64,000 bases of DNA, taken from the NCBI RefSeq assembly GCF_900182555.1, contig NZ_FXTH01000009.1, forward strand, positions 1 through 64,000, read 5' to 3'. The stretch's first letter is position 1. Each line of letters begins with the position of its first letter. Origin of the DNA: Fodinibius sediminis (GTDB lineage Bacteria > Bacteroidota > Rhodothermia > Balneolales > Balneolaceae). Below are positions 15,515 to 21,759 of the stretch, one piece after another. A program made the translations under genes and the position numbers. A model generated the notes under the pieces. That model did no database searches and was not told the origin of the DNA. It worked only from the letters and a program-made list of their open reading frames with translations.

Positions 15515-16627
15515 ATGAAGAATAAGAATGATTCCACTTCTACATACTCTTTTCTGAGGAAGGTGCTGATCTTTGTGGTTATCGCCCTTGCCGTCACCCT
15601 CCTCGTGATGTTTGTGGGAGAGGCAATTGATACGCTGTTAATTATCTTTGCGGGCATATTGCTTGGCACTATTTTTCGATCAGCCCGCGACTTTATTCAT
15701 CAAAAACTGCGTTTGGGACATGGCATATCCCTGACTTTGGTTATCCTGATTTTCCTGGCGACCGTATCCGGCCTTACTTATGTGCTGGCCCCCAGCATTG
15801 CCAACCAGGTCGATACCTTTTATCAACAGCTGCCTGAAACCTGGGAGATGACGAAGCAGGAAATCTCACGTTTTGGATGGGGACGGGAACTGGCGCAGGA
15901 GAATCCCCATATCCGCGATTTTTTTGAAGACGAGACGGATCAGACCGGCGAGGATTACGATATGACCAAGAGTATCCTGGGCTATCTGTCGACCACCGCC
16001 ACGATTATAGCCGCTCTGGTGCTGGTCTTTGTCATTGCTGTTTATATCGCGGCGGAACCAACACTTTACTCGGAGGGATTTGTCCGCATGTTTCCCAAAA
16101 AGAGGAGGGAGCGGGTACTGCAAATCATGAATGAAATAGCCATCACCATCCAGTGGTGGATTGTGGGACAGGTGGTTTCCATGATTATCCTGGGCACCCT
16201 TGCAACACTGGGTCTCTGGCTGCTGGGGGTGCCGTATGCGCTGCTGCTTGGGGTCTTTACCGCGCTTATGACGTTTATTCCGAACCTGGGGCCTATTATA
16301 GCAGCTGTGCCTATCTTGCTAATTTCTTTGACGGTGGGCCTGGAAACAGCCATCTATACTGGTATTTTTTATGCCATCCTGCAGGGCGTGGAGGGGTACT
16401 TTATTACCCCCATGATTCACCGCCGGGCGATCTCTGTTCCCCCGGTACTGATCATCACTATTCAGTTCCTGCTCTATTATTTGATTGGTTTTATGGGCGT
16501 GTTGCTTGCCATGCCGCTCATGGGCTGTGTTATGGTGCTTGTAAAAAGACTCTATATACAGGACATACTGGGCGATCCGCTGGAAGAACGGCTTCCACAC
16601 GATTTGAGGGGAGATAATATCTTTTGA
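15515..16627 (+). CDS. AI-2E family transporter (paralogue 1)
   Basis: Inner-membrane permease of 370 residues with about eight helices. It shows the family pattern: two N-terminal helices, a long extracytoplasmic segment (about 90-140: QVDTFYQQLPETWEMTKQEI...), then a C-terminal bundle with LLGVPYALLLGVFTALMTFIPNLGPIIAAVPILL and a QGVEGYFITPMIHRRAISVPPVLII motif. Members have been linked to AI-2 export, Na+/Li+-H+ antiport or unknown substrates, so the name is not proof of function. Two further paralogues lie at 19433 and 61384. A CsbD gene follows 113 bases downstream. Confidence 0.88.
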   Translation: MKNKNDSTSTYSFLRKVLIFVVIALAVTLLVMFVGEAIDTLLIIFAGILLGTIFRSARDFIHQKLRLGHGISLTLVILIFLATVSGLTYVLAPSIANQVDTFYQQLPETWEMTKQEISRFGWGRELAQENPHIRDFFEDETDQTGEDYDMTKSILGYLSTTATIIAALVLVFVIAVYIAAEPTLYSEGFVRMFPKKRRERVLQIMNEIAITIQWWIVGQVVSMIILGTLATLGLWLLGVPYALLLGVFTALMTFIPNLGPIIAAVPILLISLTVGLETAIYTGIFYAILQGVEGYFITPMIHRRAISVPPVLIITIQFLLYYLIGFMGVLLAMPLMGCVMVLVKRLYIQDILGDPLEERLPHDLRGDNIF

Positions 16628-16740
16628 ACAAGATAAGCTGAAACTTTTTGGATTTCTGGGCATTAGAATAGATACAGCGTGCAGTGGTATGCGCCTGTGG
16701 ATATAAAGTCGCTGGTATCAAGTTAAAATCATCCATCATT

Positions 16741-16935
16741 ATGAGCGAGTTAATAACAAAAGAGAACTGGCAAGAACTTAAGGCCAAACTTATAGAAGAT
16801 TATGCGATATTAACCGAACAGGGGCTGCAGTATGAAGAGGGAAAAGAGGAAAAACTCCTTGGTATGTTGCAGCAGAAACTGGGAAAAACCAAAGCGGAAA
16901 TAATGAGTATTCTACGTGAATATACCCAGCGGTAA
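16741..16935 (+). CDS. CsbD-like stress protein (paralogue 1)
   Basis: A 64-residue acidic/basic helical protein: NWQELKAKLIEDYAILTEQGLQYEEGKEEKLLGMLQQKLGKTKAEI, the CsbD pattern. CsbD proteins are sigma-B or general-stress induced in other bacteria and have no known activity. I chose ATG 16741 because the domain begins four to six residues later; an in-frame upstream start at 16684 adds residues unlike any CsbD protein. It is more divergent than the second CsbD at 17508, lacking the usual GNW.K.KGK start. First of three small co-directional stress genes. Confidence 0.85.
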   Translation: MSELITKENWQELKAKLIEDYAILTEQGLQYEEGKEEKLLGMLQQKLGKTKAEIMSILREYTQR

Positions 16936-17035
16936 TTCGCGTGAATAAAAGCAATTGTTGAAATGATTTTACCCCGGCACGACGTTACAATAGTAGTTGC
17001 TAGTCATCAATATCTCTAATCAAACTGGTATTATT

Positions 17036-17446
17036 ATGGGAACAAGAAATAAAGAAAAAGTGATTTTGGCTACTCTCACCGGCGTAGCCAGCGGTGTAAT
17101 CCTCGGACTGCTTTTTGCTCCTGAGAAGGGGGAGAAAACGCGGGAAAAAATAAGTCAGAAACAGGCCGAATACCTCAAGGATCTGAAAGATGAGATCGAA
17201 GAGTTGCGCAGCAAGATTAATCAGAAGATCGAGGCGGGAAAAAAAGAGGTCGATGAACTCGGCAAGGAGGTTAAATTTAAAAGTGATGATGTGATCAGCA
17301 AAGCCAAAAAAATGGCCTCCTATGACGAATGGACCAAAGAGGAACTCTATCAAAGAGCCAAGGAAACGGGTATTGAAGGGTATTCCACGATGAACAAGGA
17401 TGAACTGATAGAAGCCCTGAGACAGCACAAGCCGATCTCCTTCTAA
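17036..17446 (+). CDS. YtxH-like membrane protein fused to HeH/SAP-like domain
   Basis: A 136-residue protein with three parts. Residues 1-30 hold the YtxH-type single membrane helix (VILATLTGVASGVILGLLFAPEKGEKTREKI); residues 30-95 are a charged coiled coil; residues 98-133 (YDEWTKEELYQRAKETGIEGYSTMNKDELIEALRQH) are a helix-loop-helix nearly identical in pattern to the protein at 12916. This would tether a putative nucleic-acid- or protein-binding domain to the inner membrane. ATG 17036 is preferred over the upstream 16997 start because YtxH proteins begin just before the helix. Flanked by two CsbD genes. Confidence 0.85.
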   Translation: MGTRNKEKVILATLTGVASGVILGLLFAPEKGEKTREKISQKQAEYLKDLKDEIEELRSKINQKIEAGKKEVDELGKEVKFKSDDVISKAKKMASYDEWTKEELYQRAKETGIEGYSTMNKDELIEALRQHKPISF

Positions 17447-17507
17447 TATTGGGGAGCATTTTTTTACACGGGAAGATATCATCAGCAGCATTAATAAATG
17501 AAATATT

Positions 17508-17693
17508 ATGGATAAATTAAGACTGGAAGGGAACTGGAACAAAATCAAGGGTAAACTAAAAGAGGAATATGGAGAGTTGACCGATGACGACCTTGTCTAT
17601 GAGGAAGGCAAAGAGGATCAACTCATCGGCAAACTCCAGGAGAAACTTGGGAAGACCAGAGACGAAGTAAAAGCGATCTTGCGTGATATGTAG
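17508..17693 (+). CDS. CsbD family stress protein (paralogue 2)
   Basis: A 61-residue canonical CsbD protein: [53 protein letters not shown]. Cytoplasmic, mostly helical, general-stress associated in other bacteria; molecular role unknown. About half of its residues match the CsbD-like protein at 16741 by eye, so the pair arose by duplication with the YtxH-like gene between them. The gap to the metal-transport genes downstream contains a separate promoter, so it probably ends this cassette. Confidence 0.92.
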
Positions 17694-17743: not shown

Positions 17744-17793
17744 TTGCTGTTTAAATTTTTGGTGTGTATAATTATACACACTTAAATTTAAAC
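17744..17793. promoter_or_regulatory. Promoter overlapped by 20-bp perfect palindrome (putative metal-regulator operator)
   Basis: GTGTGTATAATTATACACAC at 17762-17781 is a perfect palindrome. Outside it, GTTTAAATTT (17749-17758) and AAATTTAAAC (17784-17793) form a second perfect inverted pair centred half a base away. The palindrome contains TATAAT (17767-17772), which lies 17 bases after TTGCTG (17744-17749), a plausible -10/-35 pair. Binding here would block transcription of the MerC-like/ZIP operon starting at 17802. Likely binders are a Fur-family (Zur-type) repressor or the ribbon-helix-helix protein of the same operon; that is inference. Confidence 0.6.
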
Positions 17794-17801
17794 AGGTTCA
17801 C

Positions 17802-18182
17802 TTGGCTACAAAAAAAATCTGGGACGCTATAGGATTAGGCTTTTCCGGGCTGTGTATAATTCATTGCATGCTAATCCCCGTTGTTTTCACAATGGTATCA
17901 CTGCATTCCACAGCGGGAGTAATACATGACGGGATGCATCCTGTTCTTCTTCTTATTATTATTCCATCCGTCTATTTGGCAATAAGGCAAAGAAAGAATG
18001 GTAATTTCATATATACCATACTCATAGCAGGTTTATCCATACTTATTCTGTCATGGGTACTCCATGATCTTCTGGGAACAGCCGGAGAGGCCGTTGTTGC
18101 CTCGGTTGGAAGTTTATTGCTAATTCTGGGGCATTGGCTGAATTTCAGAACGCATACCAGGCAGTGCCGTATCCTGCGCTGA
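17802..18182 (+). CDS. MerC-domain membrane protein
   Basis: A 126-residue inner-membrane protein with four helices. The N-terminal helix has GLGFSGLCIIHCMLIPVV, with the Cys-x-x-x-Cys pair (CIIHC) and nearby His typical of MerC-domain proteins, followed by HDGMHPVLLLIIIPSVYLAI and a C-terminal GHWLNF...C segment. MerC itself carries mercury, but in this bacterial group such proteins usually occur with zinc genes and no mer operon. Start is TTG at 17802 (reading MATKKIWD), the first codon giving the family N-terminus. First gene of a three-gene operon with ZIP (37 bases on) and a DNA-binding protein. Confidence 0.85.
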   Translation: MATKKIWDAIGLGFSGLCIIHCMLIPVVFTMVSLHSTAGVIHDGMHPVLLLIIIPSVYLAIRQRKNGNFIYTILIAGLSILILSWVLHDLLGTAGEAVVASVGSLLLILGHWLNFRTHTRQCRILR

Positions 18183-18219
18183 AGCGGTAACTCCAAGTGA
18201 CCGATACTTTTATAACGAA

Positions 18220-19041
18220 ATGCCTGACCGAGTCGTTGTCTACAGTACTCTTTTCATATTGTGTGTGTTTACCTTCATTGCCATGCTGATGTCGAACTGG
18301 AAGGTGATTGGCATCTCCTGGATCGCTTTTGCTTCTATGGCAGCAGCCATACCCATGGGGGTCAAGGCTGCCGCACAGCACAGACTGAATCATCTTATTG
18401 CCGGCTATGGACTGGCCAGCGGAGCCATGATAACCAGTGCCGCCATTTTCCTGGTGCCGACAGCCATGAATCACCATCCGGTGTATGGGGGGCTGGGAAT
18501 AGCGCTGGGCATTATGGCCGGATTTGCAATTCATACCCTCAATCATGGCTTGACGCATACCTCCTCATCCATAGATCCCGTTGTTTTGGAATTGACCTCG
18601 CATGCACTTTCGGCCGGTCTTATCATCGGCATTGTGTATGCTGCCATGCCGGAGTTAGGACTGCTTCTGGGTATAGCTATTGTTTCGCACAAGGGGCCCG
18701 CTGGCTATGCGGCTTCACGGCGACTGGCCAAGCAGGGAAAATCAGCGGTTTTAATACTGCTGCCGGCATCTGCTATTGGGCTTACTGCGCTTCCGGTAAG
18801 TCTGTTGAATATTCCCGGGAATGATGTTGTAAATGCCCTTATTTTCGGTTTCGCTACGGGGGTGTTTTTTCATGTCGCCATTGATTTTCTTCCTGAGTGT
18901 GAAGTGGGGGGGAAGATCCACCGGGAAACCAATTTAGAACATGATGAACACCACAAATTGGATCAATATCGGCAATGGGCGGTTTTATACACATTCCTTG
19001 GGGGACTTGCTGTTTTCCTGGCCTGGTACATGGCCTACTAA
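18220..19041 (+). CDS. ZIP-family metal transporter
   Basis: Probable zinc (or other divalent metal) importer of 273 residues with about eight helices. Transport-site motifs are visible: HALSAGLIIGIVYAAMPE in helix IV and SHKGPAGYAASRRLAKQG in helix V, with His residues in both, plus FHVAIDFLPE near the end. A histidine-containing loop (NHHP, HTLNHGLTHTSSS) lies before helix IV and another (EHDEHHKLDQY) near the C-terminus, likely metal-binding. It follows the MerC-like gene and precedes the ribbon-helix-helix gene by 27 bases, so expression should follow the palindromic operator at 17762. Substrate zinc is inferred. Confidence 0.85.
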   Translation: MPDRVVVYSTLFILCVFTFIAMLMSNWKVIGISWIAFASMAAAIPMGVKAAAQHRLNHLIAGYGLASGAMITSAAIFLVPTAMNHHPVYGGLGIALGIMAGFAIHTLNHGLTHTSSSIDPVVLELTSHALSAGLIIGIVYAAMPELGLLLGIAIVSHKGPAGYAASRRLAKQGKSAVLILLPASAIGLTALPVSLLNIPGNDVVNALIFGFATGVFFHVAIDFLPECEVGGKIHRETNLEHDEHHKLDQYRQWAVLYTFLGGLAVFLAWYMAY

Positions 19042-19068
19042 ATATTCATTGAACAACTTCATAATGAT

Positions 19069-19407
19069 ATGAAACGGTTAAACTTTACGCTGGACAGCGA
19101 AACGGTACAGCTGCTGGCCGAGCTGTCTGAGAAATATTACGATGGCAATAAATCACAGACCGTCCGCGCGGCCCTGGAGAGTCTGGCTGTCCATGCCGGG
19201 CATGAAGGGTGGGTGATTGCAGGATACACGCCCAAGGAGTTGGATGATGAAGCAAGTTGTCACAGCTGCGGAGAATCGCACGAAAAAGGCGAGGTGCTCT
19301 ACCGCCCCGTCTTTGAAAAGGGCAACAGCCCGAATGCTTTTTCATCCATGCCAGCAGAAAACTGGCTGGACTGTCCGGAATGTGCGGAGAAACAGATTCA
19401 CCAGTAA
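19069..19407 (+). CDS. Ribbon-helix-helix regulator with CxxC/CxxC tail
   Basis: A 112-residue protein. Residues 1-44 (KRLNFTLDSETVQLLAELSEKYYDGNKSQTVRAALESLA) are a CopG/Arc-type ribbon-helix-helix DNA-binding domain. The C-terminal half carries Cys64-x-x-Cys67 (CHSC) and Cys102-x-x-Cys105 (CPEC), a zinc-ribbon-like arrangement, plus His65, His71 and a WVIAGY segment. As last gene of a metal-transport operon it is a good candidate for a metal-responsive autoregulator, analogous in logic to NikR but with a different metal domain. No toxin gene is adjacent, so an antitoxin role is unlikely. Function inferred. Confidence 0.8.
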   Translation: MKRLNFTLDSETVQLLAELSEKYYDGNKSQTVRAALESLAVHAGHEGWVIAGYTPKELDDEASCHSCGESHEKGEVLYRPVFEKGNSPNAFSSMPAENWLDCPECAEKQIHQ

Positions 19408-20577: not shown

Positions 20578-21759
20578 TTACTGCCCGTTGATCCTGGTTT
20601 TTAAAATTTCGCTTATTGTTGACTGTGACCATGAAGTAACATCGCGGGCTACTTTTATCGCACACCCCCAGGAAAGGGTGACGCCAGCGCCCCCGTGACC
20701 ATAGTTGTGATAGATCATTTTATCCCCAATTGTTTCATGATCAAGACGTAATCCTCCCTTTTTCTTTCGTATATAGCGGTAACCGATAAATGGTATAAGC
20801 TCCTTGACCTTCCCAAACGGGAGGGAAAAACTGTTCTCAATAATTTCCCTGTTCAGATTAACAACGGGAGCCGGTACCTTGTAGTTCCCAATCTGGTATT
20901 CCGGTGAAGCCATCAGCTTGCCGCGCCATTGACCGCCGGTGGTAAGAACCCCCTGCTGTCGGCTGCCGCCAAGGATCCAACCGTCCCGCCGCGGATAACA
21001 GTACACATCACAGGCAGAACCATCTGCCTGGGCATATACTCCGGGGGTGGGTGTATAGTTATAGGACTGCACAGGCCCGCCTTTGGATGTCCTGAGCAGG
21101 GGAGCGCCTTCCCGGTATAGCAGGTGGCCCCGAAGCAGCAGGTGAGGTGCAGGATCGTCGAATAGCAGTCGGCTGCCCAGTCCGCTGCAATTCACAATAT
21201 GCGCAGCCGGCAGTCGACTAATATCTTCGGGATGCAGTTTCCGGGAATGTATGGTACCGCCCTGTTTGAGGTAACGTTCTTTAAGCGCCGGGAAGTAGAC
21301 CGGCCAGTCGGCAAAGAGGCAGTCAAACGACCACCCGGCGGTGACCTGTATACCGGGACGCCCGGGTGCGATAGCGGTCTGTGACCCGCTGTCGAGCAGA
21401 CAGACGTTATCCATCCATGCAAGGTACTTGGGCGGCTTTTTAGGAATTTCAAACAGTTCGTGGTGTCTGCGGCGTTCTATGCCCGGGAAAGAAGCATTGA
21501 GCAGGGTGTAGAAGAGGCTCTGAGAGGTGTTGAATAGAGATCTGAGGCGGTCGCTGTGAATGGAATGGGGGATAACTGAGGCCGAGGGAAAAAGGCTTGC
21601 AAAATCCGGGTGTGCATTTTTGCGGTCGATTTTTTCGACCATCTTATCTGTATAAATGATCGTATCATACCCCAGGAGCTGCAGCACATACGCTGTTGTC
21701 AGGCCAGATACCCCGCTGCCAATAATAATAACAGGCTTGGAATGCGTGGTTGAATCCAT
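20578..21759 (-). CDS. D-amino-acid oxidase-like FAD oxidoreductase
   Basis: Flavoenzyme of 393 residues, DAO family. The dinucleotide fold is at residues 9-40 (PVIIIGSGVSGLTTAYVLQLLGYDTIIYTD), with NCSGLGSR near 190 and the C-terminal FAD-binding motif YGHGGAGVTLSWGCA near 363, which together are characteristic of D-amino-acid and D-aspartate oxidases. These deaminate D-amino acids to 2-oxo acids with release of ammonia and H2O2. It follows the PLP-dependent dehydratase/racemase gene by about 60 bases, suggesting a linked amino-acid route. Exact substrate cannot be read. Confidence 0.87.
   Translation of the reverse strand: MDSTTHSKPVIIIGSGVSGLTTAYVLQLLGYDTIIYTDKMVEKIDRKNAHPDFASLFPSASVIPHSIHSDRLRSLFNTSQSLFYTLLNASFPGIERRRHHELFEIPKKPPKYLAWMDNVCLLDSGSQTAIAPGRPGIQVTAGWSFDCLFADWPVYFPALKERYLKQGGTIHSRKLHPEDISRLPAAHIVNCSGLGSRLLFDDPAPHLLLRGHLLYREGAPLLRTSKGGPVQSYNYTPTPGVYAQADGSACDVYCYPRRDGWILGGSRQQGVLTTGGQWRGKLMASPEYQIGNYKVPAPVVNLNREIIENSFSLPFGKVKELIPFIGYRYIRKKKGGLRLDHETIGDKMIYHNYGHGGAGVTLSWGCAIKVARDVTSWSQSTISEILKTRINGQ

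Follow-up and report, generated by a model that had tools for sequence, protein, structure and literature searches.

Two kinds of described regulator come closest to the one considered here. NikR, the nickel-responsive repressor, recognizes an operator built of GTATGA half-sites within a long inverted repeat (PMC4486848). The targets of Zur, the zinc regulator of the Fur family, were reviewed and include COG0523/ZigA, the ZIP transporter gene zupT, TonB receptors and zrg ABC genes, and autoregulation has been reported for several Zur proteins (PMC6103462). A search of the open-access literature, which takes in few subscription papers, turned up no description of a ribbon-helix-helix (RHH) zinc regulator. 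The locus described here is part of a 64-kb stretch of DNA from Fodinibius sediminis (the window) and, judged from sequence, most likely encodes a zinc-dependent, autoregulating metal-uptake repressor, which would be Zur-like in its working and, in build, would combine a NikR-like DNA-binding part with a zinc module.

The operon comprises three plus-strand genes, which the sequence-only reading had named as MerC, ZIP and RHH genes. The first (17802–18182), with a TTG start, encodes a MerC-family membrane protein of 126 residues, which is a full match to PF03203 (E = 9e-15; 55.6 bits against a curated cut-off of 27.6). The second (18220–19041) encodes a protein of 273 residues whose similarity to PF02535 is weak (E = 3e-5) and misses the curated cut-off (24.1 against 35.1 bits), and which found no match among PDB sequences; all three genes of that reading are thus present, with the second to be called ZIP-like only. 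The third (19069–19407) encodes the RHH protein of 112 residues. Among 53 loci collected with this protein as query, MerC adjoins the RHH gene in most, and the ZIP gene belongs to the operon only in Fodinibius-type loci. No mercury-resistance genes were found among the neighbours of the operon. Upstream on the same strand lies a stress-type cluster (15515–17693) of an AI-2E-transporter-like membrane protein, two CsbD-like proteins and a YtxH protein with a Rho_N-like C-terminus; one CsbD and the YtxH protein were assigned by Pfam and the remainder by eye.

The domain structure of the RHH protein, an N-terminal RHH part followed by a C-terminal zinc-finger-like module with four cysteines, was deduced from an alignment of 47 sequences, the match to NikR and a structural model. 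The protein is 78–90% identical to its Fodinibius/Aliifodinibius counterparts, and the 32 invariant columns of the alignment include most of the strand MKRLNFT, the GNKS turn, a GW pair and the cysteines C64, C67, C102 and C105, in the arrangement CxxC...CxxC. It has no match to any Pfam family and none to an NCBIfam family above cut-off, and no relative was found in viral contigs. The sole PDB sequence matched by its profile was NikR (1q5v residues 1–80, E = 1e-4), in the RHH part only. The AlphaFold2 model (pLDDT 79.5, pTM 0.51) places the RHH helices at residues 10–24 and 28–43 and makes the C-terminal half rich in strands. A fold search with this model gave nothing at E < 0.001, the weak matches being C1/PARP zinc fingers and NikR. 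The window protein thus shares with NikR the N-terminal DNA-binding domain and, as predicted targets, metal-uptake genes, but the C-terminal nickel-binding tetramerisation domain of NikR was not detected and the Cys4 module takes its place. From Zur and Fur it differs by an unrelated fold, without the Fur domain (PF01475), and by a different operator.

The candidate operator is the perfect 20-bp palindrome GTGTGTATAATTATACACAC at 17762–17781, which reads GTGTGTA-TAATTA-TACACAC and covers the −10 box of a sigma70-like plus-strand promoter (17744–17772). The −35 box TTGCTG (17744–17749) and the −10 box TATAAT (17767–17772) are separated by 17 bp, and the sequence agrees on this point with what had been read from it earlier. 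It is the sole perfect even palindrome with arms of at least 8 (at least 16 bp in all) in the window. Nevertheless, the palindrome alone is unremarkable, because one of at least 20 bp also turned up in 6 of 100 windows simulated with the same dinucleotide composition, and conservation is the deciding point. The outer inverted pair in which it had been described as nested (17749–17758 and 17784–17793) is really a repeat of 12 bp (17747–17758 and 17784–17795), with its centre half a base away from that of the inner palindrome. Aligned orthologous loci do not keep it, even those of other Fodinibius, so that it was rejected as a part of the operator; this window-specific repeat is probably without function. 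A search of the window's own genome with up to two mismatches found no second copy of the operator, and the predicted regulon there is therefore a single operon; with one site only, the zinc reading depends on the relatives. Some 80 bases further on, within the MerC gene, TGTGTATAATT (17851–17861) repeats one half of the operator in inverted orientation, perhaps as a second half-site, perhaps by chance.

On these comparisons we consider it probable that the RHH protein is a zinc-sufficiency repressor acting on 17762–17781, that it autoregulates MerC-ZIP-RHH and that it stands in for Zur. An RHH dimer fused to the four-cysteine module, with zinc as its presumed ligand, would have the palindrome as its operator and would bind it directly. 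When zinc is sufficient, the protein would sit on GTGTGTA-N6-TACACAC over the −10 box and would repress the three genes, its own included; when zinc is scarce, it would release the operator and the metal transporters, presumably importers, would be made. The protein would thereby fill the role played by the Fur-family Zur in related bacteria.

The search of relatives for the palindrome ahead of MerC/ZIP genes, which the sequence-only reading had proposed as its check, found it conserved. Near the operon start, GTGTGTA-N5/6-TACACAC occurs with at most one mismatch in 40 of the 53 orthologous loci. The arms are nearly invariant and the six central bases variable in 34 aligned sites, and its position on the promoter is kept as well: the T of the −35 TTG, which precedes the site by 18 bases, is retained in 30 of the 34 aligned relatives (88%), as is the −10 pattern TA-T-TT across the aligned sites. 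Since the site is present also where MerC is divergent (L020, L023, L025, L037) or follows RHH (L021, L032), it accompanies the RHH gene and not one gene order. The loci without a site include two whose contigs end just before RHH (L018, L051), Longimonas (L022, L024), L047, L048 and Armatimonadota. Five of six Armatimonadota have a half-site TACAC(A/G)C, fused to TATAAT, directly next to the start codon of RHH; as the left arm there coincides with the common extended −10 (TGnTATAAT), the right half-site alone counts and gives weak support.

Co-occurrence was surveyed in 195 genomes of the class, of which 55 have the RHH gene, 128 MerC and 191 Fur-family genes. Exact sites with the 6-bp spacer were found in 36 of the 55 genomes with RHH and in none of the 140 without, many of which carry MerC and Fur-family genes. 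In several of the 19 remaining RHH-containing genomes the spacer measures 5 bp or a single base mismatches, and in some the contig stops before the promoter. The Fisher p-value of 1e-25 overstates independence, the genomes being related, and is a guide only; the association repeats, though, in several families, and in genus g5 the sole sampled genome with RHH (G271) has the exact site. The confinement of exact sites to genomes with RHH makes the operator specific enough for regulon prediction from sequence. Some sites that recur with one mismatch, namely GTGTGTACTTTTGTAGACAC and those of L117/L118, were put down to chance: they fall within coding sequences or at their ends, and genomes have them whether or not they carry RHH. 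A second exact operator was observed at a contig end in one genome (L175, G308:C158).

The genes behind the site in relatives are those of zinc starvation. In L031, labelled Gemmatimonadetes, 4.5 kb separate the site from RHH downstream; the long operon headed by the site encodes an ABC ATPase, a His-rich permease, a ZigA GTPase, an unnamed protein, MerC and RHH, and this GTPase is over the cut-off for ZigA, a zinc metallochaperone (608.6 against 600 bits). In G247 (L207), the site is followed by a small HSHDDCH/CPYC protein, a TonB receptor, DUF1826, a ZigA-like GTPase just below that cut-off (597.2 bits) and a second CobW-type GTPase. A ZigA-like GTPase stands behind the site also in G375 (L203/L189). 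Seven Rhodohalobacter-type genomes have a small HxH/CxxC protein, a lipoprotein and a ZnuD-like TonB receptor behind it; one such receptor, scanned whole, has ZnuD as its best NCBIfam match at 217 bits, far under the strict cut-off. The TonB operons behind the site begin, at L129, L174, L176–L178, L181, L182 and L207–L209, with genes for small proteins of secreted type that carry HxH and CxxC motifs and mostly end in RAPP; one weakly matches DUF2946, and they are possibly periplasmic zinc binders. The content of this predicted regulon (COG0523/ZigA, ZIP, TonB receptors, ABC genes) and the palindrome on the promoter are alike to those of Zur, the zinc-starvation genes (ZigA, DUF1826, ZnuD-like) lying at the sites of relatives, with only MerC-ZIP-RHH in the window. 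A poorer fit to a pure uptake role comes from Longimonas and Armatimonadota, where RHH genes stand alone, and from L047, where the gene lies beside a metal P-type ATPase (read from sequence).

Beside MerC, RHH and Fur-family genes alternate. Relatives without RHH often have a Fur-family (Zur-like) gene adjoining MerC, as in G092, G187, G265 and G259, which have close MerC orthologues; such genes also adjoin more distant MerC genes in families f2, f3, f44 and f45, and the RHH gene adjoins MerC in loci that lack the Fur-family gene. These MerC-linked genes were found with nearer queries, a profile from the main Fur proteins missing them. In genus g2, some relatives without RHH have neither gene beside MerC. 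A FAD-dependent oxidoreductase, at 20578–21759 on the minus strand of the window, is conserved as a neighbour on the downstream side of MerC in many Balneolaceae, whichever of the two regulators is present, and follows RHH directly in some Fodinibius. That several relatives without RHH share it indicates a common locus in which the regulator differs. The surroundings in G271 are different, and the unit may have moved in there. What had been proposed from the sequence, a metal-uptake unit with its own regulator and an operator unlike the Zur or Fur box, is supported in that the site tracks RHH and not Fur-family genes and that the targets in relatives are zinc-starvation genes.

The same alternation could be turned around, with the palindrome as the operator of a Fur-family regulator (Zur/Fur) and RHH as a co-transcribed passenger. 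Zinc regulons are usually Zur regulons (PMC6103462), Fur-family genes adjoin MerC in relatives without RHH, and the window's own genome has two Fur-family genes. We regard this as unlikely: with Fur-family genes in nearly all genomes of the survey, exact sites would not be expected in those with RHH only, and the inspected MerC upstream regions of relatives without RHH lack the site. Moreover, the Armatimonadota RHH genes retain the TACACAC half-site without any MerC, and the second Fur-family gene of the window's genome (L201, C16:19041–19325) lies beside a CusA/CzcA-type RND efflux gene. Still less credible, and very improbable in our view, is that the palindrome acts in RNA, as a hairpin or terminator belonging to the CsbD gene upstream, and is no operator. 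It does lie about 70 bases after the CsbD stop, and the outer repeat would lengthen the stem, but relatives do not preserve a palindromic spacer, the upstream genes differ (L210, L228), no T-run follows the palindrome and the site holds its position on the −10 box.

A more serious competitor, though clearly the less favoured, accepts binding of the RHH protein to the site and changes the signal to another metal or to thiol or redox stress sensed through the cysteines. The four invariant cysteines could form a redox switch, or the Cys4 module could be structural with a different signal sensed; MerC is named for mercury, and one homologue has the P-type ATPase as neighbour. Against this, what follows the site elsewhere is a set of zinc-scarcity genes, with ZigA over its cut-off, DUF1826 and ZnuD-like receptors, and no thiol-stress or mercury-reductase genes were among those observed there. 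The zinc-sufficiency repressor remains our preferred reading. It is set apart from NikR by its conserved site, GTGTGTA-N6-TACACAC without GTATGA half-sites, and by zinc rather than nickel genes, and resembles several Zur proteins in its proposed autoregulation.

We are evenly divided on the wider proposal that RHH proteins with four cysteines form a separate zinc-sensor family in Balneolota/Rhodothermota, Armatimonadota and some others, which replaced the Fur-family Zur in the control of zinc-uptake genes and would be a second RHH line of metal sensing besides NikR. If true, a zinc sensor would be added to the RHH fold, of which NikR is the sole case among metal sensors in the literature searched. 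The locus would also offer a clear case of regulator types substituting for one another beside one target gene, and zinc uptake in a large halophilic and marine group would be controlled by a small regulator that belongs to no Pfam family and to no NCBIfam family above cut-off.
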